A program made the position numbers and the translations under genes. Under the pieces are notes generated by a model. It saw nothing but the letters and a program-made list of their open reading frames with translations, was not told the DNA's origin and made no database searches. A DNA stretch of 64,000 bases from Candidatus Brocadia sinica JPN1. Lineage in GTDB: Bacteria; Planctomycetota; Brocadiia; Brocadiales; Brocadiaceae. Location of the stretch: NCBI RefSeq assembly GCF_000949635.1, contig NZ_BAFN01000001.1, positions 2,356,001 to 2,420,000 on the forward strand, read 5' to 3'. Below are positions 28,872 to 39,793 of the stretch, one piece after another; position 1 is the stretch's first letter; each line of letters starts with the position of its first letter.

Positions 28872-29227
28872 GGGGGCGAAAGGATTCGACCGGACAAGTT
28901 GAGGTATAGGTGGCGTATTGAGGTTGTCAGGCGGCCTCATTAAAAACCTGGCAAAATGATTTAAATGCCGAATATCCAATGGCAATGGCTGCTTAATTAA
29001 CAGCCACGTTTCATTAGTCTTACCTGCGAGGTTAATGAAACGACGACTAGCAGGTTAGTTCAGTCTCTTTGGTAGGTGGGGACCGAATGAACCCTTAAAC
29101 CTAGCTGGTTATCGGAAACCCTGTCTATTGGGGCTCTGGATGACGAGATTTAAAAAATAGACTATGTACGTAGAAGCCTATGTTGAAATGTCTAGGGACG
29201 CGGGTTCAATTCCCGCCGCCTCCACCA
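28872..29227 (+). ncRNA. ssrA: Transfer-messenger RNA
   Basis: One-piece tmRNA of 356 nt that rescues stalled ribosomes. The 5' GGGGGCG pairs with 3' CGCCTCC to form the acceptor stem, and the 3' end encodes ACCA (29224-29227). The 5' GGGGGCGAAAGGATTCGAC and 3' GCGGGTTCAATTCCCGC T-arm are diagnostic. The tag reading frame ends at TAA 28994-28996 and reads NDLNAEYPMAMAA, perhaps with one Gln codon before it. The resume codon is not certain. The last 28 bases form the attachment site of the element that follows. Confidence 0.97.
29200..29227 (+). repeat. Left attachment repeat inside the ssrA 3' end
   Basis: 28 bases identical to 38196-38223, covering the tmRNA T-arm, acceptor strand and CCA. 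This is the usual crossover region for tyrosine integrases that target tRNA or tmRNA genes. The functional ssrA copy is at this end. Confidence 0.93.
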
Positions 29228-29249
29228 TAACATATTGATATTGCTAGAC

Positions 29250-30521
29250 TTACAAAACCACTTTTTCTGCTGGTGACGGTTTGGTGACGGTTTGATCTTT
29301 TAGCGATAGGTTTATGATGTCTGCTTTCAGTCTTCCAACATCGGTATGAATGTAGTATTTTTCGGCCATTTTTGTTGATGAATGCCCTAATAACTTCGCC
29401 ACGTTAAGAAGTGGTATGCCTTTATTAGCCAACTGAGACGCTACGGAATGCCTTGTTGCATCGTAGAGACGGATTGACTGGCTTAATCCAACTTTCTCCC
29501 TTATATCATCCCATATTCTTCTGAGACTATTTTCTGAATAATGCTTACCGGTTTTAGAATTTACAAACACGTAGGCATTAGGAAGATTGTTTTTTATACG
29601 GTCTGTGATATATGGAAGCAATTCTGGATGAAGTGGAATTGTAGAATCCTTTGAATTTCTTCCTTTCCTTCTTTCCAGAAACACCCTACCGGAAAAGGTT
29701 GATGATATAGTAATCACACCATGTTCTAAATCAATGTCCTTACACTTTAAAGCCCGTGCTTCCGATGGACGGCATCCATGCAACATTAAAAAGGCAAAGA
29801 TAGGTTTGTGATCATCCGGAACGACCTCAAAGACTTTCTGTTGTAACTCCTGGGTAAGCCAGGTAATCTTTGGTTGTGGCACACCAATAACAGGGAATGA
29901 CGGAACAACGTCTAGTATTTCAAGGTCAGATTTTAAGTAGTTCAAGAAGGTTTTAAAATTGTCCAGAATGTTTTTAACAGTCTTTTCGCTGAAGTCAAAA
30001 TTTTTAGCAAGATGTTCCCGGTAGTTTATTACATCTATCTTCCGAAGCTCTCTTGCATCCGTACCGCCAAAGTAATCTTTTGCAATCTGTACAAACCTTC
30101 GATAATCCTTTTTATAGCTTGGCGCAATAGAATCAATTTTGAATGTCAGAAACTTATCTAGTAAAGTTGAAACATAAAATTTTTCAAGGTCTTGCTTAAC
30201 GTATCTTGTGGGATCGAAAGTGCGGTTCTGGATTTCGTAATTGATGTGGCTAAGTAAGCTTGATGCTCTCTGATAAGTATCAATGGCCTGTCCATGTTTA
30301 TCTGAGAATAAACGAATCCGTTGGCCTTTGTGGAATAGGTCGATGTAAAAACGGTTAGGTACCGTCTTATGTTCTGCACAAATAAACCCAAGTTTTTTAA
30401 CTTCGGTAAAACTACCCTGACAAACGGGACAATGCCCCTTTGCTCTTATAGCCCCTTTCATGGCATCTTCTCCTTTCTCCTGGAGAAGATACGCTATCAA
30501 TTCGTTATTTGTCAAGGTCAT
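29250..30521 (-). CDS. Tyrosine recombinase integrase
   Basis: A 423-aa phage-type integrase that would recombine the element with the ssrA end. The N-terminal part has a zinc-ribbon-like cluster (GHCPVCQ... FICAEH, about 30-56), followed by an arm/core-binding SAM-like domain (115-205). The catalytic domain (225-405) has Arg in LHGCRPSEARAL, TRHSVASQLANKG, LGHSSTKMAEKYY and the nucleophile Tyr in that last motif. Box II begins with Tyr instead of the common His (LYDATRH). The stop codon is only 22 bases from the att repeat, a typical position. A clear start is MTLTNNELIAYLL. Confidence 0.95.
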   Translation of the reverse strand: MTLTNNELIAYLLQEKGEDAMKGAIRAKGHCPVCQGSFTEVKKLGFICAEHKTVPNRFYIDLFHKGQRIRLFSDKHGQAIDTYQRASSLLSHINYEIQNRTFDPTRYVKQDLEKFYVSTLLDKFLTFKIDSIAPSYKKDYRRFVQIAKDYFGGTDARELRKIDVINYREHLAKNFDFSEKTVKNILDNFKTFLNYLKSDLEILDVVPSFPVIGVPQPKITWLTQELQQKVFEVVPDDHKPIFAFLMLHGCRPSEARALKCKDIDLEHGVITISSTFSGRVFLERRKGRNSKDSTIPLHPELLPYITDRIKNNLPNAYVFVNSKTGKHYSENSLRRIWDDIREKVGLSQSIRLYDATRHSVASQLANKGIPLLNVAKLLGHSSTKMAEKYYIHTDVGRLKADIINLSLKDQTVTKPSPAEKVVL

Positions 30522-30667
30522 AAAAAAATATTTTTTATCGCTCGTTGTCCAGCAAACTATTTTTTCTTAACTCAGTGTGAGATAAACACACTTTTGAGCC
30601 TTTCGTATCGTTTTGACGTGCCTTAAACCACGTTGAAGACATTCTGAAACGTTTTTAGAAGGCGAAA

Positions 30668-31013
30668 CTATACGATTGTGGCATGCCTTTTAGAAAATTT
30701 AAACCGTTCCAAGTGTGAAGTTACGCCCGCCTTTATTTTAGGATTACGTCCAAGTCTGTACGGATGCAAATAACAAAGCCTGTCTTCAAAAAGTAGTTTC
30801 CCTGTGCACTCCTTAACCTCTTGTCGTGTCTCAACACAATCAAGGCAATGGGATTTGATACGCTTCAGAGGGGATAAGGTTACGTCTTTTAACCCCACTG
30901 CACCATTTACATTCAAGTCTGATTGCTGTCGCTGGTGTCATGGATGCATCGGCCATATCCAGCAACCCCAGTTCATTCCCCGTAGGAGTCTGCGTTAACT
31001 TTAATTCTGCCAT
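30668..31013 (-). pseudogene. Cysteine-rich (zinc-ribbon-like) phage protein, frameshifted
   Basis: A strong start (ATG at 31013 with GGAGGG seven bases away) opens a frame beginning MAELKLTQTPTGNELGLLDM and running to TPATAIRLECKWCSG, but it stops at 30840. A second frame, with no proper start, continues from about 30916 as LSPLKRIKSHCLDC, then KECTG and LHPYRLGRNP, ending at 30668. Together the two frames look like one small phage protein with two Cys-x2-Cys units that has lost its frame, possibly with a short deletion. It lies between the integrase and a 50-aa ORF. Function unknown. Confidence 0.6.
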
Positions 31014-31153
31014 TCTTTACCCTCCATAAGCTCAATTTGTGCCTTCACTGCAATGGCTTCATTTATCAACAACTTCATTTTGCACATTAATTCAAAATAC
31101 TTCAGCCATAAAACGGTTAATTGCTCGGTCTTGCTTTCTTCAATTTTTATCAT
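31001..31153 (-). CDS. Small protein, 50 aa, of the integrative element
   Basis: Starts at an ATG overlapping the end of the small terminase gene by 14 bases, with a GGAGG site nine bases before it inside that gene. The sequence is predicted to be a single helical hairpin (LTVLWLKYFELMCKMKLL, INEAIAVKAQIELMEG). Its end overlaps the start of the next, frameshifted gene by 13 bases. The tight packing and strong site support a real gene. No family recognised. Confidence 0.6.
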   Translation of the reverse strand: MIKIEESKTEQLTVLWLKYFELMCKMKLLINEAIAVKAQIELMEGKEWQN

Positions 31154-31643
31154 CGTTTTCAACCTCCGGTTGATTAAGATTGTTTGATAAATTTTCCAAC
31201 GCCTGGCGAAGTTCTTTGCCCAAAATTTCATGCACCCTGGTTTTATCAATCTTGCCCGATGTACTGATTTCGCCGGCCAAGAGAGAAGCCACCCTATCGG
31301 GAACAGCAAGGATAGCATCCCTGGTCATCCTGGCCGCTTGAAAGGCTGCCTTCTTTACTTCAGCTGCACTAACAAGCGAACCGCCCAGGCGCTCATAATT
31401 GAGTTTAACCGTCTTTGCCCTCCATAACTCTTTTTCAGCACGTGCAGACTCATAATCACTGCTTGTTGCTTTGGAATCTTTTAAAATCTTTTCCCTCCAT
31501 TGAACGCATTCAGATAAATTGAATGTGTAGCCTTTATGTGTCCGCTCATGCGGAAGGCCTTTGTCCAGCCAATTGCGGACTGACACCTGAGAAATTCCAA
31601 ATGCCCTAGCTAACTGTTTCAAATTCAACCTTTTTTCCGACAT
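31140..31643 (-). CDS. Phage terminase small subunit, Nu1-like
   Basis: A 167-aa protein whose N-terminus is a winged helix-turn-helix (LNLKQLARAFGISQVSVRNWLDKGLPHERTHKGYTF). The body (ESARAEKELWRAKTVKLNYERLGG, then VSAAEVKKAAFQAARMTRDAILAVPDRVASLLAGE) is the pattern of lambda Nu1-type small terminases. These recognise the packaging site and recruit the large terminase. An AGGAGTGG site precedes the ATG. No large terminase, portal or capsid gene is present in the element, so it would have to work with packaging proteins from another phage. Confidence 0.85.
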   Translation of the reverse strand: MSEKRLNLKQLARAFGISQVSVRNWLDKGLPHERTHKGYTFNLSECVQWREKILKDSKATSSDYESARAEKELWRAKTVKLNYERLGGSLVSAAEVKKAAFQAARMTRDAILAVPDRVASLLAGEISTSGKIDKTRVHEILGKELRQALENLSNNLNQPEVENDDKN

Positions 31644-31870
31644 TTTCCACTCCTATAAAAATTGCATTTTTGGGGTCACAATCTGTGAATGTTTCGAGGT
31701 CGTCTTGCCCCCGTACAAAAACGCTTTCTGGAAGTACCTTAGCCTTTGCCCCGCAACAACTTACAACACGCTTCCTATTTCATGTGAAGTAATGGCTGCC
31801 CGCTATGAAACAGTAACCGGGAGAACGAGCAGCCGTGGAGGACTCCCGTTTTATCTTACGACCTTCCCGC

Positions 31871-32491
31871 CTACGATCTTTGCCTTGCCCCCCTTTGTGC
31901 TTTCATGCATGCCTGATAAGAGCTAAGTGATACAAACTCCGCCCTGATGCTTGAATTCGTTTCCCAGTTATGGAGAATTTCTTGCTCAAAGGTCACGATC
32001 TTTGGTTGCCTAGGTATCACGGCTTGTGGATAGCTCCGAGTAAACGGGACACCCGCCCGCAATTGTGCAATGGCATTCATCGCCTCTTGCTGTGTGGGTG
32101 TAATCGTTGGAGCTTCGGCCTTGCTTGGTGTCTGTGCTTCAGCTAATTGGGTTTTAGGACGTTCACCCTTGCAACCACCCCTGATAAATTGCAGTGTAGC
32201 CCAATGCTCCCGTCTCCAGGGTTCGTTACTGATATCAGCTTCCGTTTTACCCTCAAATTTTCTTTCAAGATAAGACTTTATTTTCGTCAAAGGTTCATGA
32301 TTCTTAGGATCATCCGGGCAATAATGTTGAAAACTATCTAATCCAACCGGACATCGTTTCGTTTTTTCCATGATTCGTATCCTTTTGAAAAAAAGTGTTT
32401 TAGAATTTAAGGAGCATGGGTGCTGGTTGATGGACGGACACCCATGCCCCGGCCTGTGGAGGAATAGGCTTACTGATTCGTTAATTGACAT
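31871..32491 (-). CDS. Hypothetical protein of the integrative element
   Basis: Up to 206 aa. Two starts have good sites: 32491 (GGAGGG eight bases away) and the internal ATG at 32371 (AAAAGGATAC), giving MEKTKRCPVGLDSFQHYCPD. The shorter form starts with a Cys/His cluster followed by a polar, Pro- and Gln-rich middle. The segment before Met 41 looks less like folded protein. The C-terminus (NWETNSSIRAEFVSLSSYQACMKA) looks conserved. No family recognised. It lies between the small terminase and the 79-aa gene. Confidence 0.6.
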   Translation of the reverse strand: MSINESVSLFLHRPGHGCPSINQHPCSLNSKTLFFKRIRIMEKTKRCPVGLDSFQHYCPDDPKNHEPLTKIKSYLERKFEGKTEADISNEPWRREHWATLQFIRGGCKGERPKTQLAEAQTPSKAEAPTITPTQQEAMNAIAQLRAGVPFTRSYPQAVIPRQPKIVTFEQEILHNWETNSSIRAEFVSLSSYQACMKAQRGARQRS

Positions 32492-32549
32492 TTTTTAGCC
32501 CTCCAAAAAAAAGACTGATAAAGTTAAAACCCATAAAAAAAAGAAAGTT

Positions 32550-32789
32550 TTAAGAATTAAACGCCTTGTGCGCTTGAACAATTAAATCCGATAGCTCTTT
32601 CACCAAATTGGCCTCGACAAAATCACCGCAAAAAACAGCCTCAATCCAGGCCTTTGAAAAACCACGATTGTTGTATAGCCTGAACGTCTGATTGTTAAAA
32701 TGGCCTTTCACACATCTTGCAACTCCATTACGATAATCAATTCTTCCCTTTTTCCGCTCCCCGGACACGATAGGAATTTTTATCTTCAT
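32550..32789 (-). CDS. Hypothetical protein, 79 aa
   Basis: A small basic protein without membrane segment. Its ATG overlaps the stop of the PC4-like gene by 4 bases, so the two are translationally coupled and probably share a role in replication or regulation of the element. No motif is recognised beyond an alternating strand pattern in the first 45 residues. Confidence 0.6.
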   Translation of the reverse strand: MKIKIPIVSGERKKGRIDYRNGVARCVKGHFNNQTFRLYNNRGFSKAWIEAVFCGDFVEANLVKELSDLIVQAHKAFNS

Positions 32790-33010
32790 TGAGTTTTACC
32801 TGCTCCCTTTTGGAGTATTTTTATCATGGCTTCAATGAATTTTGGCGAAAAGGTAATGCCTTTCTTCGTTGGCAGATAGTTTCCATCATCGCCCTGGAAG
32901 AAAGTTCGCATGTCAACATATTTGTGTCCTCTGTATTCTTTGAGGCCGATTACGATTTTGTCGGTTTCCGACTTAACAATTTCGCCTAATACTGTGTCTA
33001 GTTGTTCCAT
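32786..33010 (-). CDS. PC4/YdbC-like ssDNA-binding protein
   Basis: 74 aa from the ATG at 33010, which has a GGAGGG site. The core DKIVIGLKEYRGHKYVDMRT, then FFQGDDGNYLPTKKGITFSP with a final helix, matches the transcriptional coactivator p15/PC4 fold: four strands and a helix, with the conserved PTKKGI. Bacterial and phage versions bind single-stranded DNA as dimers. Just downstream of the PrimPol-helicase gene, it probably serves the element's replication. A reading frame extended 13 codons upstream is unlikely. Confidence 0.82.
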   Translation of the reverse strand: MEQLDTVLGEIVKSETDKIVIGLKEYRGHKYVDMRTFFQGDDGNYLPTKKGITFSPKFIEAMIKILQKGAGKTQ

Positions 33011-33030
33011 TTTTGCCCTCCAAAAAAAAG

Positions 33031-33366
33031 TTAAATCATGCACGCACACCCTTTACAATCAGGTAATGCATCGTAAAGTTTTTGATACACAACGTCGTAA
33101 GCCTTTTCAGTTTTTAAAATTTCAGGAGCGTAATTTGGCGCAAAATAGCCCACCCGCCTTAAAATGATGGGTTTGTACTCTTTGTACCAGGTTTCGTTTG
33201 CACAAAATTTTTCACCTGGCTTAATGGTTTTAATCCCGTGCAATAGGTCATCAAAGTAAGGGTCGATTGCAATAATAGTTTCCCATGTGAGACTTCCCTT
33301 TATGGCCGTCTGCCTTGCCTCTCTTTCTTTACAAAAAGAGACAAAATCACTGTCGATAAGTTCCAT
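33031..33366 (-). CDS. Hypothetical protein, 111 aa
   Basis: Starts at MELIDSDF, where a GGAGG site lies eight bases upstream; the Met five codons earlier has no site. The protein is soluble with several Tyr and Trp residues, and the C-terminus carries a Cys-x2-Cys-x-Cys group (DCKGCACMI) that could bind metal. It lies between the PrimPol-helicase and the PC4-like gene with about 20 bases on each side, so it belongs to the replication operon. No family recognised. Confidence 0.6.
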   Translation of the reverse strand: MELIDSDFVSFCKEREARQTAIKGSLTWETIIAIDPYFDDLLHGIKTIKPGEKFCANETWYKEYKPIILRRVGYFAPNYAPEILKTEKAYDVVYQKLYDALPDCKGCACMI

Positions 33367-33386
33367 TCCGTATACCTCCATTAAAA

Positions 33387-35012
33387 TTAATTCGGTCGTC
33401 TCCAGCCACTCGTCTGGATAAATTTAATCCCGCCTACTAATTTGAATTCACATTCCATGCGATTTGGGTTAACATCGGGTTTTACCCAATTTTTTGCCTT
33501 TACAATCTTCAACCTTCCCGGCGACATACTCAGGTATAGCCGCGCCTTTTCTGCAGAGAAATCGCCGCCCCGCCCAAATTCCTGACCAGCCTTCTTTTGC
33601 AGGGCAATTAGCACAAAGCCCGTTTTTAGTCGGTCGAAAATCTCTTTTATATCCCTGGCGATTTCGTAGAAATTTTCGGACTTTTCCACATAGTCAACAA
33701 TGGTGAGGCCATCAGGCAGGATCAGGTCTTGGAAATTACAAGAACGTTCGATGAACTCAATTTTTTTCCATTCGGATTCAGGGACGCCTAAAGGCAATGT
33801 TCGACTTTTTATCTCTTCGCCGCTCATTTCTGAAGTCAAAAAGCGGACTTTCATACGCTCCCTGTTCATGCATGCAAAATTAAGGCAGAGAGCAGTTTTC
33901 CCAGCATCAGTCTCTCCAGCGACTACAGCGACAGATTTGGGCAACACGTAGACTTTTTCGTGAATTCCGAACGGCCATACAATTGGAAGAGGATTTATGG
34001 AAACACTTGACAAGTCTATAACTTCATAATCTTTTTTAATTTTACGAAAGCAACCGTTTTTTTCCCCGTGACGCTCAATAACGCCTTCCTCGCAAAGGCG
34101 TGACAGAATTTTTGACAAATTCTTTTGTTCGTCCCTTGACGACACTTGTAGACATTTGACGACGTCTGACGACAAAAAAACGCCGTTTGACGACAAAATC
34201 CACTCTTTTACTTCGTCTGAAAACTTCCCATCCCGCTTTTCTTGCCGTTTTAGTGCACTCTCAATTTTGTCATTTACCCATTTTTCATCAACTTCCTCGC
34301 CCCAGCTAAGTATCAGTCTTCTAAGCACTTCGGATGCAAGGTTAATATCAATGCCAGATTTTACTAAACCGTTTGCAACCGCAAAAAGGTCATTATCACG
34401 ACGCCCGTTTGCAAAAGGTGTCGTCAGATTTGTCGTCACACCCTCTATATATAATGTATTTTTATTTAATGGTGCACTCCCGTGAGGTCGTGCACACTTG
34501 CCAGGGGGTTGAGACAGAGTCTCAATTACATTTGAGGGCATAGGCTGTAAGGCATCTCGTGTAAGTCCGGAAACATTTAGCCAACTATATTTTTTACCTT
34601 GTGAATTAATAGAGGGGGGAGCAATAATTACGCCGCCATTTGCCCTAACATCAACTTTGGAAAAAACAGCTGTCTTAGTTTGAAGGTCTTCAGGGCATTG
34701 GAAATAATAATGGCGCCCCCCTCGTGGACTCACGGCGATTGGACTTTCAAACATTTCGGGAAGTATGAAATCAATCTTTTCACAGGCCTCGGACGAATCG
34801 CAATCAATAACACAAATCCCACTAATTTTGCCGGTAACAAGACCAATCATCGCCTTTGAATATTTCGAAAACATCTCTTTGGTTTCCTGCTCAGAAGGCA
34901 TTCGGGTTTGAAATTCAGCCCATTTCACCAATGGCTTTTTATCGGTCGGACTCATTGGAATTACCGGGAAGCCTTGCTCCAAATACATAAGAGCTGCATC
35001 AAGCGTTTTCAT
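33387..35012 (-). CDS. PrimPol primase with RecA-like helicase domain
   Basis: A 541-aa replication protein. Residues 1-165 form a bifunctional primase/polymerase domain (AEP/PrimPol): the metal-binding pair is D70-C-D72 in VIDCDS, followed by PRGGRHYYF with the catalytic His 101. Residues 200-255 resemble a primase C-terminal helical domain, and about 260-330 form a winged-helix segment. The C-terminal RecA-like ATPase has Walker A GETDAGKT (366-373) and probable Walker B GLTIVDYV. Such fusions start replication in plasmids, satellites and prophages. The start overlaps the upstream HTH gene by 4 bases. Confidence 0.9.
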   Translation of the reverse strand: MKTLDAALMYLEQGFPVIPMSPTDKKPLVKWAEFQTRMPSEQETKEMFSKYSKAMIGLVTGKISGICVIDCDSSEACEKIDFILPEMFESPIAVSPRGGRHYYFQCPEDLQTKTAVFSKVDVRANGGVIIAPPSINSQGKKYSWLNVSGLTRDALQPMPSNVIETLSQPPGKCARPHGSAPLNKNTLYIEGVTTNLTTPFANGRRDNDLFAVANGLVKSGIDINLASEVLRRLILSWGEEVDEKWVNDKIESALKRQEKRDGKFSDEVKEWILSSNGVFLSSDVVKCLQVSSRDEQKNLSKILSRLCEEGVIERHGEKNGCFRKIKKDYEVIDLSSVSINPLPIVWPFGIHEKVYVLPKSVAVVAGETDAGKTALCLNFACMNRERMKVRFLTSEMSGEEIKSRTLPLGVPESEWKKIEFIERSCNFQDLILPDGLTIVDYVEKSENFYEIARDIKEIFDRLKTGFVLIALQKKAGQEFGRGGDFSAEKARLYLSMSPGRLKIVKAKNWVKPDVNPNRMECEFKLVGGIKFIQTSGWRRPN

Positions 35013-35227
35013 TTGTGGGATACCTCAAATAATGCCTTTTTGATTTTTTCAAGGTCGGACTGCCTGAAAACACGATGACCATTGTCTAACGTTAAAAAAT
35101 CTTCGGCTTTTAATCTTTTGGATTCAAACAGGTAAATTAGTCGATGTCGTGGGATGTTAAGGATTCTCAATACCGCTGAGACACTGAGTAGCCTTTCTGT
35201 GTCGTGTGGATGCGAAAGATTTTGCAT
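35009..35227 (-). CDS. AlpA/MerR-like helix-turn-helix protein
   Basis: A 72-aa DNA-binding protein. RLLSVSAVLRILNIPRHRLI is the helix-turn-helix, followed by a wing with NGHRVFRQSDLEKIKKAL, as in excisionases and AlpA-type satellite regulators. It heads the replication operon (4-base overlap with PrimPol). It probably controls this operon or excision of the element, perhaps through the inverted repeat at 35280-35302, about 50 bases upstream. Confidence 0.8.
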   Translation of the reverse strand: MQNLSHPHDTERLLSVSAVLRILNIPRHRLIYLFESKRLKAEDFLTLDNGHRVFRQSDLEKIKKALFEVSHK

Positions 35228-35279
35228 CGTGTATACCTCTTAAAATTGTTTAGAATAAAAGGCTTTTCTATAGGAGGTA

Positions 35280-35302
35280 TATACGACTTTTGGAGTCGTA
35301 TA
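35280..35302. promoter_or_regulatory. Inverted repeat upstream of the replication operon
   Basis: Nine-base perfect arms (TATACGACT / AGTCGTATA) around TTTGG. It lies between the 401-aa gene and the HTH gene, both leftward. A role as operator for the HTH protein is likely. A terminator for the 401-aa gene is less likely, because no T-run follows in the leftward direction. Confidence 0.55.
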
Positions 35303-35337
35303 AAATTTTTTGTAGGATTTTTTAAAACTGTGGGATA

Positions 35338-36543
35338 TTATTCAAATTCCCAGAAGGTAGGTTCTTTCGGCTTGTAGGAAAAGGGAGTGCTTTTGTAGTT
35401 TAATGCATTCTCTAAATGTTTCCAAACAGGGTTTGATTTAGATTGAATATTTTTCAAAACTCTTGTAATTGCCCGATAAACTGCATCATACTTCTTTTTG
35501 TATTGAGGGTTTGAAATTTTATTTGGTGTTTTGAGTTCCTTTTCAATTTGCTCCTTTTCGTACAATAAATTTGCTATATCGATATCGCCTTGGGTTTTTT
35601 TGACAATCTCTAATTTATCGGCGATCTCATTTTCTATTGCACCAAGTCTTGATTTTAGTGTTAAAATATATTCTCCATCTCTCTTTTTTTCCTGCGGTGA
35701 ATATTCACAAACAGTTAAATCTTCCTCAATTGCTTCGGTTGTCTCTTTTTGCCCAGCCCTAATTCCGTTTATCGCCTGATACAGCGCATCCAATGAGAAT
35801 TCAACGGACTGATTTTTTATTAGATGTCGGATATACTCCAAACCTTTGAGATTTGGAAGCGTAAAATCATATTCCCCCAATTTAATAAACCATGATGCAC
35901 CTTCTTTTTTGAAAAAATTTCTTTTTGAATAATCAAGGGTTTCTTCTCCAATTTTAGCCAGCGGTTTTATATCCTCAACGGTTTTAGTCAATCCCTCTAC
36001 AACCCCGAAAGATGCTATTTCTTGCGCCTTTGCTAATAGCTGGACAGCTATTAGCACCTGCTTTAATATACCGGAATCGTCTTCTTTCTCTCGATAATAC
36101 AAAATATCTTCCAGGATGCTCCAAGCTGTCTCTATTGTCAAAACAGCCAATATTTCTACGTCAGTAATTCTTTCGTCTAGCGATGTGCTCTCACTTCTGG
36201 TTATATCAATAGCCTCTTTCCATGCTATATCGGGTGTTGCATCGTATCTATACGGGGAGTACCGATAAAGATATTTTTGCACTGAATAACAGGTTCTTGC
36301 GATAGTTCGGGCTGCTTTTAATTTCCAGTCAGGATATTTACTACATTCTTTTGGAGAGACTTCAAGAAGGATTAAAGGGGATATCTTTGGTGAGTTTTCC
36401 GGTGGTAGGTCTTCTGCTTCAGGCCATGACGTATCGGTTACGTGGAAAAAGGGATTGATACCCCATAAACTTCTTGCCTCTGTTATTATGCCGATACATC
36501 GGCTTGCCGGTGTGTTTGGTGTGTTATCCTCAATCTCTGGCAA
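35338..36543 (-). CDS. Unknown 401-aa protein, probable cargo of the element
   Basis: A large acidic soluble protein with no signal or membrane segment. The N-terminal 200 residues are helical. At about 210-260 a segment (SWFIKLGEYDFTLPNLKGLEYIRHLIKN) resembles a winged-helix-like domain found in some bacterial regulators next to ATPase or TPR domains. The C-terminal part (about 280-380) is a charged helical region, probably coiled coil. It lies outside the replication operon, beside the ASCH and HicAB genes, where satellites often carry accessory genes. No enzymatic motif is visible. Confidence 0.6.
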   Translation of the reverse strand: MPEIEDNTPNTPASRCIGIITEARSLWGINPFFHVTDTSWPEAEDLPPENSPKISPLILLEVSPKECSKYPDWKLKAARTIARTCYSVQKYLYRYSPYRYDATPDIAWKEAIDITRSESTSLDERITDVEILAVLTIETAWSILEDILYYREKEDDSGILKQVLIAVQLLAKAQEIASFGVVEGLTKTVEDIKPLAKIGEETLDYSKRNFFKKEGASWFIKLGEYDFTLPNLKGLEYIRHLIKNQSVEFSLDALYQAINGIRAGQKETTEAIEEDLTVCEYSPQEKKRDGEYILTLKSRLGAIENEIADKLEIVKKTQGDIDIANLLYEKEQIEKELKTPNKISNPQYKKKYDAVYRAITRVLKNIQSKSNPVWKHLENALNYKSTPFSYKPKEPTFWEFE

Positions 36544-36634
36544 ATGCCCAAATAAGGGACACCAGGGATTTTTAAATAAATCATCAACATCGTTTCCTAT
36601 CTGTCATTTCTCCTGAATGACTCTCCAAGATAAA

Positions 36635-36690
36635 AATTAAGGGAAACCGTTGGAGATACGGCTTTTCGCTGATCAGGCTATCCCTTAATT
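36635..36690 (-). terminator. Possible terminator after the ASCH gene
   Basis: Ten-base perfect arms (AATTAAGGGA / TCCCTTAATT) enclose a 36-base loop. In the leftward direction the last arm runs into TTAATTTTTATC, a weak T-rich end. The loop is long for a simple terminator, so another structured role is possible. Confidence 0.4.
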
Positions 36691-36694
36691 GCAT

Positions 36695-37036
36695 TTAATG
36701 TTGAAATTCAATATGAAAAAATCCAAGCTTTCCCTTAACTGGAAATGCTTTTATTTTGCGTATATTTGCCAGTTCCCATGCGTATAATCCTGGTTCATAT
36801 CCGCAACAAGCAAGCTTAGCATCTTTTTTCATGAAGGGTCGACAACCTACTATTTCAGCAATAGCTACGGCATGACCAAGTGGCAATTCGCCGATCTTCG
36901 GAAATTTGGAAGAGCAAAGGAGTATATCTCCTCGTATTTTCGTCTGCCATGAGCGGATTTCGAGTGTTTTTTTGCCCTCTAAAATCCAGCCGATAAAAGG
37001 TTGTTTTATTGAAATTGCTTTCACTGTATCATCCAC
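36695..37036 (-). CDS. ASCH domain protein
   Basis: A 113-aa single-domain protein of the ASCH superfamily (PUA-like fold). The pattern KAISIKQPFIGWILEGKKTLEIRSW, then RGDILLCSS and GHAVAIAEIVGCR, is characteristic. ASCH proteins bind RNA or modified nucleosides, and some are ribonucleases or N4-acetylcytidine amidohydrolases. They are frequent in phages and mobile elements. The catalytic Lys/Glu pair of the amidohydrolases could correspond to GKKTLE, but the activity here is not shown. Confidence 0.85.
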   Translation of the reverse strand: MDDTVKAISIKQPFIGWILEGKKTLEIRSWQTKIRGDILLCSSKFPKIGELPLGHAVAIAEIVGCRPFMKKDAKLACCGYEPGLYAWELANIRKIKAFPVKGKLGFFHIEFQH

Positions 37037-37117
37037 TCAGGAATGTGACCTTTTTGGGAGCTACCGTATCCCTTTTTTTACCACGTAAACATCAATCGAA
37101 ACGCTTCCAGTGCCTTC

Positions 37118-37321
37118 CTATTGCGTTCTATCGCTAATTTTACCGTATCCCTTCGACTTCCAATCCCGGTCGTAGATCGTAATATATCCGTTTTCAATAA
37201 TCACATGCTCTTTAACGCGCCCCTGGGTGTCGTAAACATCGATTACTCTGCGCTCCTGTCGGAATTCGGTGACGGTTCCACAACCGGCTATCAAAAGACA
37301 CAGGATTATTGCAAATCTCAT
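37118..37321 (-). CDS. Small lipoprotein of the element
   Basis: A 67-aa lipoprotein with a short signal (MRFAIILCLLIAGC), Cys 14 being the acylation site. The mature part is polar (VIDVYDTQGRVKEHVIIENG) and ends at SDRTQ. A GAGGATTT site precedes the ATG. Mobile-element lipoproteins of this size can act in superinfection exclusion or as lysis spanins; nothing here decides between these. Confidence 0.6.
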   Translation of the reverse strand: MRFAIILCLLIAGCGTVTEFRQERRVIDVYDTQGRVKEHVIIENGYITIYDRDWKSKGYGKISDRTQ

Positions 37322-37356
37322 GATAAATCCTCAGCTACATAACCGTTACAAAAGAC

Positions 37357-37701
37357 TCAATCTTTATGCACCAGTTCTTTTTCAATTGCCTTTTGGATAA
37401 GCCTATTTAATGTCGTACCCATAGACTTAGCCCTTTCTACGGCCATTCTATGAAGCTCCGGGGATATACGAACATTAAAGCCACCTTTGTATGATTTCAA
37501 AGGTTCTTTATTCATTTTTTTGCAAAGGTCAAGGTAGTCGTCCACTTCCTCGTGGAATGCTTTTATCAATTCCTCTACACTATGGCCTTCAAAGGTCACT
37601 AAGTCGTCTATCCCCTCTATTTTCCCATGAAATACCTTGTCCTCTGCACTAAAACGAACGGAACCTATAAAACCCTTGTATGTTAAAACATCTTTTCCCA
37701 T
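37357..37701 (-). CDS. hicB: HicB-family antitoxin
   Basis: A 114-aa antitoxin. The N-terminal partial RNase-H-like fold reads FHGKIEGIDDLVTFEGHSVEELIKAF, then VDDYLDLCKKMNKEP. The C-terminal ribbon-helix-helix domain (FNVRISPELHRMAVERAKSMGTTLNRLIQ) binds DNA and should repress the operon. Its ATG directly follows the hicA stop, and its AAGGGGG site lies inside hicA. Confidence 0.92.
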   Translation of the reverse strand: MGKDVLTYKGFIGSVRFSAEDKVFHGKIEGIDDLVTFEGHSVEELIKAFHEEVDDYLDLCKKMNKEPLKSYKGGFNVRISPELHRMAVERAKSMGTTLNRLIQKAIEKELVHKD

Positions 37702-37959
37702 TTAAATAACCCCCTTATGTTTAAGTATTCTCTCAATATCGTCCAACTGATACCGCTTAAGCTCAGGTCTCGGATGTGGCTTATGAAGTTTAATAATATG
37801 CCCAGTCTCAGGATTCATAAAAGCCACCCTTGACCCCGCCGTCTTGCCTGTACTTATATTCTCATACCCAAAACCAGCCAAAAGCCTTGTAAGCTCATCG
37901 TAGGTAAAATCCTTCGGCTTAGACAAGAAACGTTTCAGTAACTTTTCAAACCTACTCAT
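37702..37959 (-). CDS. hicA: HicA-family mRNA interferase toxin
   Basis: An 85-aa double-stranded RNA-binding-fold toxin that cleaves mRNA. The family pattern is present: DELTRLLAGFGYENISTGKTAGSRVAF then IIKLHKPHPRPELKRYQ, where the His of the HKPHP region (or the preceding strand) is catalytic. Toxin first, antitoxin second is the usual HicAB order. It is the rightmost gene of the element, about 240 bases from the right att repeat, a good place for a stabilising cargo module. Confidence 0.92.
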   Translation of the reverse strand: MSRFEKLLKRFLSKPKDFTYDELTRLLAGFGYENISTGKTAGSRVAFMNPETGHIIKLHKPHPRPELKRYQLDDIERILKHKGVI

Positions 37960-38067
37960 TTACTTATGATAACATTAAAACATTTTAATGCAACTATATT
38001 CTAGTTATATTAAATAGCAAAAGGCATTAACCCTGAAAATGAACGAAAGGTATGTTTTCGAGGTAAG

Positions 38068-38110
38068 AAAAAAGGCCATTAATCCTTGATAGAGTTAACA
38101 GCCTTTTTTA
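38068..38110. terminator. Bidirectional terminator near the right end of the element
   Basis: AAAAAAGGC (38068-38076) pairs with GCCTTTTTT (38101-38109), giving T-runs in both directions. It would insulate the element from transcription entering from the right. Confidence 0.6.
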
Positions 38111-38195
38111 ATTCTGGTGACGGTCTGGTGACGGTGTTTTTGAGGTTCAAAAAGTCATAAGTAGTTACATATACCACACTTAATTTTTTTTGGCG

Positions 38196-38223
38196 GCGGG
38201 TTCAATTCCCGCCGCCTCCACCA
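38196..38223 (+). repeat. Right attachment repeat (ssrA 3'-end copy)
   Basis: Exact 28-base copy of 29200-29227. No tmRNA body precedes it, so it is a non-functional fragment marking the element's right boundary. The sequence after it (from 38224) was probably the original flank of ssrA. Confidence 0.93.
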
Positions 38224-38647: not shown

Positions 38648-39149
38648 GGCACAATAATCATGCCGGGGGGGCGCTTCCAGAGTGGGTTAAATGAACTTTT
38701 TTTGCTTCAAAAGTGGGTAAGAACTGTTATAAATTGCCATTTTTTGCACGTGTTTTGTCGCTTTTTAGCCCATAAAGTGGGGAATAAATCTCACGAAATA
38801 GGGTGAAATTGCCTATTTGACCCAGTCTGTTCGCTTCTCCCAACCCACAAAACTTCTTAATTTTTACCAACAATTCCATTCATCTGTGATAATTTCTTTG
38901 CCTATTATTTTTTCTACTTTTTGTATCATCATTCGAAGCTGAAGAATAGAGCATTCAGTATCTCCAATTATGGCAATATAATATCAACTTTTTAATGTCG
39001 TTCACTATAGTTGCCTGATGCCTTCAATCGGTAATTGGCAGATCGGTTGAATGAACCTGCTGAATTTCCGGATTCTTTGTCTCTTGACATCATTCATTTG
39101 TATATATATTATATGAGTATTAATTGTATGTCTGTTATGGAGGTAATAG

Positions 39150-39389
39150 ATGGGCTTACTAAAAAAATTGAATTTTTTTATAGAAGAAGATGTTCGCAAG
39201 GATCTGGATGAATTAGTGCCAGCCGGACAGAAAAGCAAGACAATCAATGAGGCGTTGCGGAAGGAGTTGCTCAGAATACGGCGAGAAAAGGTTACGGAAA
39301 AGCTTGTATTGTTAAAATCCAGGGGGCCAAAAGTTTCACAAAAAGAAATCGTTAAGCTTTTGAAGCAGAACAGGAACCGGAAAAGATGA
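39150..39389 (+). CDS. VapB-like antitoxin
   Basis: A 79-aa basic protein in front of a PIN toxin with a 4-base overlap (ATGA). The N-terminal half (LLKKLNFFIEEDVRKDLDEL, then SKTINEALRKELLRIRR) fits a ribbon-helix-helix DNA-binding domain. The C-terminal tail should wrap the toxin. It is assigned as antitoxin mainly by its position and size. Confidence 0.8.
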   Translation: MGLLKKLNFFIEEDVRKDLDELVPAGQKSKTINEALRKELLRIRREKVTEKLVLLKSRGPKVSQKEIVKLLKQNRNRKR

Positions 39390-39793
39390 AAATATTTGTG
39401 CCGGATGCCTCTATAATCCTGAAATGGGTGCTTGAAGATGGAGAAAGCAACCGTGATAATGCAACGGCGCTTCTTAGGGGATGGGTAGAACAAGAGCACG
39501 AGTTTGTCGTTCCGTCTCTTTGGCTTTACGAAGTTGGAAACGTTTTGGGTATAAAAAGATCAAAAGATGCTGAAAAGATAGTGGGAATTCTGCTTGAATA
39601 TGAGTTTAAGGAAATGAAAATTACAAAAGATGTTACCAGCATTGCATTTGCATTGATGAAAGAATATAGAGGAGCTACCTTTTACGATACAATATACCAC
39701 GCAGTAGCTATACGGAATAAAGGAGCCATGGTCACTGCAGATAAAACCTATTATGATATGGCAAAGGATAAAGGTTCGATACTATTGCTCTGA
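39386..39793 (+). CDS. PIN-domain ribonuclease toxin (VapC-like)
   Basis: A 135-aa PIN-fold nuclease. The acidic metal-binding residues are in place: D7 (VPDASI), E49 (LYEVGN), D101 (ATFYDTIYHAVA) and D119 (VTADKTYY). VapC toxins cleave tRNA or rRNA until bound by VapB. It overlaps the antitoxin gene by 4 bases. The pair sits between two decayed transposase fragments, which suggests it arrived on, or was retained with, mobile DNA. Confidence 0.92.
   Translation: MKIFVPDASIILKWVLEDGESNRDNATALLRGWVEQEHEFVVPSLWLYEVGNVLGIKRSKDAEKIVGILLEYEFKEMKITKDVTSIAFALMKEYRGATFYDTIYHAVAIRNKGAMVTADKTYYDMAKDKGSILLL

Follow-up and report, generated by a model that had tools for sequence, protein, structure and literature searches.

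A PICI-like candidate phage satellite with its own small terminase and cos-like site in the tmRNA gene of Candidatus Brocadia sinica

We analysed a stretch of 64,000 nucleotides of Candidatus Brocadia sinica JPN1 (contig NZ_BAFN01000001.1, positions 2,356,001 to 2,420,000), hereafter called the window, and the element integrated in its ssrA (tmRNA) gene, hereafter E1. E1 is very probably a phage-dependent satellite of this Brocadia-type anammox bacterium, resembling the phage-inducible chromosomal islands (PICIs), whose own small terminase subunit (TerS) and cos site would redirect the large terminase subunit (TerL) of a GpA-type phage. The evidence comprises its integration site and boundaries, a compact gene set that recurs in other elements, the lack of detectable terL and virion genes, and a conserved cos-terS unit. 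An initial annotation of the same DNA had proposed the logic of a phage satellite, which gains support here from a terS-linked cos site shared with GpA-type phages; satellite behaviour itself is inferred. The sister elements, the cos site and an int-alpA RNA are additions to that annotation.

E1 lies between two exact copies of a 28-bp direct repeat (GCGGGTTCAATTCCCGCCGCCTCCACCA), the left one being the 3' end of ssrA, and the repeat period of 8,996 bp is the size of the element. The ssrA site is empty in four genomes of the same genus (G001, G002, G004 and G007), with an intact tmRNA at each junction. When the flanks of E1 are joined (..29227|38224..), they align with these four genomes without a break over 561-578 bp at 86-88% identity, and the repeat is therefore a true integration boundary. 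Both the extent of the element and its ends thus stand as first annotated. In a fifth genome, G009, ssrA is occupied by another element of 8,915 bp between identical repeats, whose integrase is about 90% identical to that of the window and whose remaining genes are mostly different. Relatives of the window integrase range from 56 to 91% identity, and are found at ssrA in G009 and beside ssrA in G046. A relic adjoining the tmRNA gene was also seen at ssrA in another genus (L096, G013:C61, 8702-10743); its integrase C-terminal fragment is 82% identical and its HicAB pair 77-84% identical to those of the window.

The gene content of E1 (Table 1) largely agrees with the initial annotation. The integrase, the PrimPol-helicase, the PC4-like protein and the Nu1-like small terminase are matched by PF00589, PF09250, PF02229 and phrog_57, respectively, with a weak DnaB/RecA-like part in the PrimPol and a Pfam Nu1 match for TerS of just 7.8e-4, which is under the Pfam cut-off. 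The element is thereby predicted to carry its own primase/replication module (PF09250, 1.5e-27) and, with terS and cos, its own packaging gene and signal. The AlpA/MerR-like regulator of the annotation was right in part: there is a small helix-turn-helix (HTH) gene at 35009-35227 with a weak HTH_17 match, but it is not the AlpA of the family, whose gene is deleted here. Relatives of the HTH gene at 35009-35227 occur in L045, L046, L092 and prophage L158. The PrimPol is 60-63% identical to relatives in the G008 and G030 elements, and its nearest match among phage records is the archaeal Methanosarcina virus MetMV (39% over 98%). As had been annotated, capsid, portal, tail and large-terminase genes were not detected in E1 by Pfam, PHROGs or tblastn, and neither were lysis genes. 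No Stl/Rpr, cpmAB or pti annotation was present among the Pfam, PHROGs and NCBIfam matches, a search by annotation that was not targeted at these genes and in which several proteins had no match at all; for defence genes, PADLOC returned just weak HTH-type matches in TerS.

E1 is one of nine terS-bearing elements in six genomes, four of them in the window genome and five in relatives, and there are terS-less relatives as well. Direct repeats of 18-46 bp were mapped for eight of the nine, giving sizes of 8.2-9.4 kb. All nine share the order int, terS, cos and replication genes, and most also have an alpA-like gene; a Cys-rich protein and the AlpA-like HTH are located between terS and int in the relatives. 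The replication modules have been exchanged between elements and consist of a PrimPol, a DnaG-like primase, or an O-like initiator with DnaB. No relatives of TerL, portal or capsid proteins were found by tblastn in the elements searched, and the PHROGs matches that were scanned show no virion gene. A Deltaproteobacteria assembly (L101, 1-9824) contains a 9,684-bp satellite-like element with a 45-bp tRNA repeat, an integrase, terS and a DUF3987/RepB-type primase, and no TerL match.

These relatives bear on the possibility that E1 arose by decay of a GpA-type prophage, with the head and tail genes gone and int, replication, terS and cos retained. A full GpA-type prophage in G025 does have terS, cos and primase-related genes in common with the elements, its integrase and that of E3 being 74% identical, and the deletion of alpA and the frameshift in its neighbour in the window copy would fit decay. 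But the same compact plan, with intact int, terS, cos and replication genes and no terL remnant, recurs at differing sites in six genomes, terS is open and cos conserved in 9/9, and the replication modules and integrases differ among elements, such that independent decay to an identical end point is unlikely. Because the relatives at other att sites are just as compact and likewise have no structural genes, we do not regard the family as one decayed prophage, and consider this origin improbable. The integrases are not exclusive to the satellites, as the E3 type occurs in the G025 prophage and the window type in filamentous prophages, which sets the family apart from Gram-negative PICIs, whose integrases phages do not use. 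The latter are filamentous-phage-like prophages with integrases 63-65% identical to that of the window, L090 (G008:C276, 1683-10437), in which Zot, secretin and Rep_trans domains were confirmed, and L091 (G016:C6), which is similar by gene layout; an IMG/VR contig (L159) also has an integrase 63% identical to that of the window.

A link to phages comes from a noncoding block of about 86 bp found upstream of terS in all nine satellites, with a cosN-like part 65-110 bp before the start codon. Its layout is that of lambda cos, with GGTACTT (cosQ-like), about 17 nt, T(A/G)CGGG...ACCGC (cosN-like) and then a further conserved stretch. In the window (minus strand) these parts are the cosQ-like GGTACTTC (31738-31731), the cosN-like TACGG..ACCTCG (31715-31695) and a cosB-like stretch (31694-31655). 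An nhmmer model trained solely on the nine satellites was run against 32 other loci holding a terS relative, with E-values up to 5. All 13 non-training matches, which include the G025 prophage and IMG/VR phages, are on the terS strand and precede the gene by at most 3 kb, where chance would place a fraction of 0.081 (p 7e-15; some matched phages are mutually related and the 13 matches are not fully independent), compared with 0-2 matches for the same model in shuffled targets. The best match (E 2.4e-6) precedes the terS of the full G025 prophage by 2.7 kb. The arms of the cosN-like part form a dyad with a mean of 3.87 of 5 pairs, against 2.25 +/- 0.22 in controls (maximum of 2,000 controls, 3.13), and when the ends of lambda are joined, the known cos junction fits the degenerate anatomy pattern. 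A wider model of 15 sequences, including phage ones, was used to scan 59 genomes. It found four sites in the entire window genome, each upstream of one of the four satellite terS genes, and nearly all sites in other genomes are at satellites or GpA prophages. Two further weak sites lie at an integrase-bearing element (G053:C29) and at a place assigned to no element (G036:C39), and one element (G053:C81) has a cos site and no recognisable terS. The cos search in E4, E6, E7 and the ssrA-integrase loci L090-L092, L094 and L096 gave none. The cos-terS unit is related to the cos sites of GpA-type phages, together with which it makes up a cos-type packaging group characterised by a homologous TerS, adjoining GpA TerL in the phages, and a common cos motif.

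The TerS protein itself points in the same direction. The satellite TerS profile matches lambda TerS structures (6hn7_B, 3e-6; 1j9i, 7e-6), whereas its match to the PICI redirector RppC (6hlk) is weak (0.009) and confined to the HTH. Every IMG/VR contig with such a TerS also carries a GpA-type TerL, mostly directly downstream, and no satellite does; no terS relatives were found in INPHARED phage records at the limit used. Satellite and phage TerS are 38% identical over residues 59-157 and 15% identical over residues 1-58, a comparison including one mis-called 52-aa phage open reading frame that is not expected to alter the pattern, whereas between satellites both halves agree (53% and 44%). 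In lambda-like phages the N-terminal half of TerS binds cosB and its C-terminal end has been proposed to bind TerL (PMC9026076). Our reading of these identities is that the satellite TerS would keep the half that holds the phage motor and have its own DNA-reading half. By Foldseek the fold is convincing for the DNA-binding half alone, a generic winged HTH, with moderate model confidence. A protein of 66-69 aa resembling just this half is encoded right after terS in E3, E5 and G001 (L010 8840-9049, L012 15696-15905, L043 6242-6442), and by analogy with Rpp it could modulate TerS.

One could argue instead that E1 is an integrative element unlinked to phages, with the terS-like gene encoding a DNA-binding regulator that has been domesticated and the conserved block serving as its operator or promoter. 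The generic winged HTH would be compatible with this, as would the several relatives (E4, E7) that have neither terS nor cos. However, the half of TerS common with phages is the C-terminal one and not the DNA-binding one, the block has the cosQ-cosN spacing and the dyad, and it lies up to 2.7 kb from terS in phages, with genes between, and once occurs where there is no recognisable terS (G053). Of the alternatives considered, we give this the least credence, below even the decayed prophage.

Some observations count against the satellite reading of E1. The GpA terminase (PF05876) and the TerL of the G025 prophage are absent from the window genome, and none was above the cut-off in the genus. 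No satellite of this family was found among IMG/VR viral contigs scanned with the PrimPol and the coiled-coil protein, with the proviso that these scans and those of the genome collection rely on short or narrow peptide patterns, by which relatives can be missed and rarity outside anammox bacteria is not measurable. Lambda cos gets no match from the trained model, lambda being too distant; the cosN dyad of the window copy is weak (2/5 pairs); and the related integrated elements E4, E6, E7 and a G025 element in L092 (not the full prophage) lack terS and cos. The resident helper prophage with a compatible large terminase for which the host genome was searched, as the initial annotation had envisaged, is thus rejected. 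Since there is no resident GpA terminase, an infecting phage is a likelier helper than a prophage of the host itself, unless the helper is of another type. The GpA ATPase family is present in 4/59 relatives, and the G025 prophage, which has an HTH gene and a primase-related gene in common with the satellites, is a model of the helper type.

The life cycle of such a satellite can be proposed from these parts. The integrase would recombine the element into the 3' end of ssrA, and upon infection by a GpA (lambda-type) phage the element would excise, replicate with its own PrimPol module and produce its own small terminase. This TerS would bind the cos of the element through its satellite-specific DNA-binding half and recruit the phage large terminase through its phage-like C-terminal half, and the phage motor would then cut at cosN and package satellite DNA into phage particles for transfer.

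An int-alpA RNA (RF02996) is a further recurring feature, scoring above the Rfam gathering score in E1, E4, E7, G001, G008, G009, G013, G030 and G053, and not found in E2, E3, E5, G024 and the G025 prophage. It is located toward the int-distal side, upstream of the first gene of the operon. All three matches in the window genome are inside family elements, and 14 control genomes have none. In 9/9 cases the loop can pair with the 3' tail over 6-7 nt, through several different sequences (mean 6.33 against 3.37 +/- 0.25 when shuffled), which supports a pseudoknot. A role of the RNA in controlling induction is guessed from its position. A P4-type immunity RNA was rejected, as P4 carries C4 (RF01695), which is another RNA family.

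The window copy looks partly decayed, because alpA is deleted, the adjacent Cys-rich gene is frameshifted, and the first gene lacks a standard start. Specifically, alpA is cut to its first ~22 codons with loss of the HTH, the Cys-rich gene is frameshifted through an internal deletion, and the frame at 35338-36543 extends further upstream with no ATG, GTG or TTG at the likely start. E1 may therefore now be stranded, or need help in trans. These lesions, with the weak cosN dyad, would make E1 a dead relic within a family of true satellites, a view that is compatible with the satellite reading and concerns the window copy alone. The int, terS, PrimPol, HTH and PC4 frames are nevertheless intact, the att repeats are exact, and the HTH at 35009-35227 could substitute for AlpA, so we rate the chances of a dead and a live copy about even.

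Table 1. Features of E1 (window positions) and its sister elements
Feature	Position	Strand	Basis or remarks
ssrA (tmRNA) gene, integration target, 3' end = attL	28872..29227	+	ARAGORN, Rfam RF00023
attL core, exact 28-bp direct repeat	29200..29227	+	exact repeat; empty-site alignments
Tyrosine integrase, 423 aa	29250..30521	-	PF00589 6.9e-26
alpA remnant fused to Cys-rich (zinc-finger-like) gene	30668..31013	-	alignment to E4, G024
Small ORF (open reading frame), 50 aa, no assigned function	31001..31153	-	open reading frame
terS, Nu1-type small terminase subunit, no terL after it	31140..31643	-	phrog_57 4.1e-27; PDB lambda TerS 6hn7_B 3e-6
cos-like site	31655..31740	-	conserved block upstream of terS
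Conserved satellite gene upstream of cos, 166 aa, no assigned function	31871..32371	-	relatives in most sister elements
Small ORF, no assigned function	32550..32789	-	weak relatives elsewhere
PC4-like single-stranded DNA-binding protein	32786..33010	-	PF02229 3e-14
Protein without assigned function	33031..33381	-	E2 has a relative at 68% identity
PrimPol with C-terminal DnaB/RecA-like ATPase part (weak match), replication module	33387..35012	-	PF09250 1.5e-27
Small HTH regulator (HTH_17/MerR-like, weak)	35009..35227	-	weak HTH_17 match
First gene after RNA leader, no assigned function	35338..36543	-	open reading frame
int-alpA RNA (RF02996), operon leader at int-distal end	36622..36688	-	Rfam
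ASCH-domain protein, accessory	36695..37036	-	PF04266 3.9e-10
Short lipoprotein-like ORF	37118..37321	-	recurs in E4 and elsewhere
HicB antitoxin	37357..37701	-	PF05534 8.4e-17
HicA toxin	37702..37959	-	PF07927 1.5e-8
attR core, exact 28-bp direct repeat	38196..38223	+	exact repeat; empty-site alignments
E2	C1:2.60 Mb, window genome		terS-bearing; outer repeat not found at >=15 bp
E3	2.77 Mb, window genome		tRNA-Thr, 46-bp repeat, 8,542 bp; terS-bearing
E5	3.69 Mb, window genome		19-bp repeat, 9,383 bp; terS-bearing
E4	3.82 Mb, window genome		10,475 bp; terS-less relative
E7	0.43 Mb, window genome		66-bp repeat, 10,433 bp; terS-less relative
E6	window genome		terS-less remnant
G001 element			29-bp repeat in tRNA-Sec, 8,206 bp; terS-bearing
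G009 element	ssrA		8,915 bp; terS-bearing
G008 element			8,821 bp; terS-bearing
G030 element			8,692 bp; terS-bearing
G024 element			9,097 bp; terS-bearing

Just beyond attR, at about 38678-38836 of the window, there is a dispersed repeat of ~150 bp with at least five more copies in the same genome (74-95% identity); other genomes of the genus also contain copies. A putative VapBC-like toxin-antitoxin pair adjoining attR was spotted by eye at 39150-39793 (+), with the antitoxin at 39150-39389 and a PIN-like toxin at 39386-39793.

The phage biology of anammox planctomycetes is little known. A literature search located satellites in Proteobacteria, Gram-positive cocci, marine bacteria and actinobacteria and none for anammox planctomycetes, and a search on Brocadia, phage and satellite found no paper. 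The fullest interpretation would be that anammox bacteria harbour a satellite family not described before, of which a Deltaproteobacteria assembly holds a relative. It would hijack its helper by a complete lambda-type cos-terS cassette, in which the DNA-binding half of TerS is swapped and the TerL-binding half stays compatible with the phage, and its induction would be controlled by a pseudoknotted int-alpA RNA at the operon head. Taken as a whole, this remains tentative, and we lean somewhat against it. If true, the orphan int-alpA RNA family would be a satellite switch analogous to the immunity RNA of P4. The link to satellites gives this orphan RNA (RF02996) a biological setting, and with the trained cos model metagenomes can be searched for such satellites and for their helpers.

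Compared with known systems, the family is closest in plan to the Gram-negative PICIs (EcCICFT073 type; PMC6092414, PMC9026076), which likewise have int at one end, an alpA-type regulator (as in most elements of the family), their own primase/replication genes, a size of ~9-10 kb, no structural genes, and a lambda-type cosQ-cosN just upstream of a winged-HTH packaging protein. The initial annotation had held the element to be unlike the well-described families. This is too strong for int, alpA, the replication module and cos, which match Gram-negative PICI logic (PMC6092414), but it stands for the layout of cos with an own TerS and for the host lineage. The family belongs to another phylum, with other genes and integrases. 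Enteric cos PICIs have Rpp at the position of terS, a protein believed to have no C-terminus for TerL binding and dependent on the TerS of the helper (PMC9026076), whereas the family encodes a full TerS with a phage-like C-terminal half and no Rpp at that position. Some Gram-negative PICIs are reported with a terS homologue, the cos-terS pair not being described there (PMC6092414, PMC9026076). The phage-inducible chromosomal minimalist islands (PICMIs) are also small, with int, alpA and primase and no structural genes, but have no reported terminase gene and are located at fis in Vibrionaceae (PMC10803314). P4 (NC_001609) has in common with the family int, a primase, an AlpA-like excisionase/regulator and an antisense RNA leading the int-ward operon; its RNA is C4 (RF01695) instead of int-alpA (RF02996), and its genes include delta, sid and psu but not terS. 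Among the Gram-positive PICIs, the pac-type Staphylococcus aureus pathogenicity islands (SaPIs) also have a TerS of their own, by which the helper TerL is redirected, but use headful pac packaging, with the capsid-resizing cpmAB and a TerS without cos (PMC5052747), whereas the family has a cos-type site and AlpA, and no cpmAB relative was annotated. The cos SaPIs (SaPIbov4/5; PMC5052747) carry a cos site that is shared with the helper and have terS reduced to a 3' remnant, in contrast to the intact terS of the family with its own DNA-binding half. The cos-terS cassette would thus be a directly testable packaging mechanism, standing between the pac SaPIs with their own TerS and the enteric cos PICIs with their own cos and Rpp.

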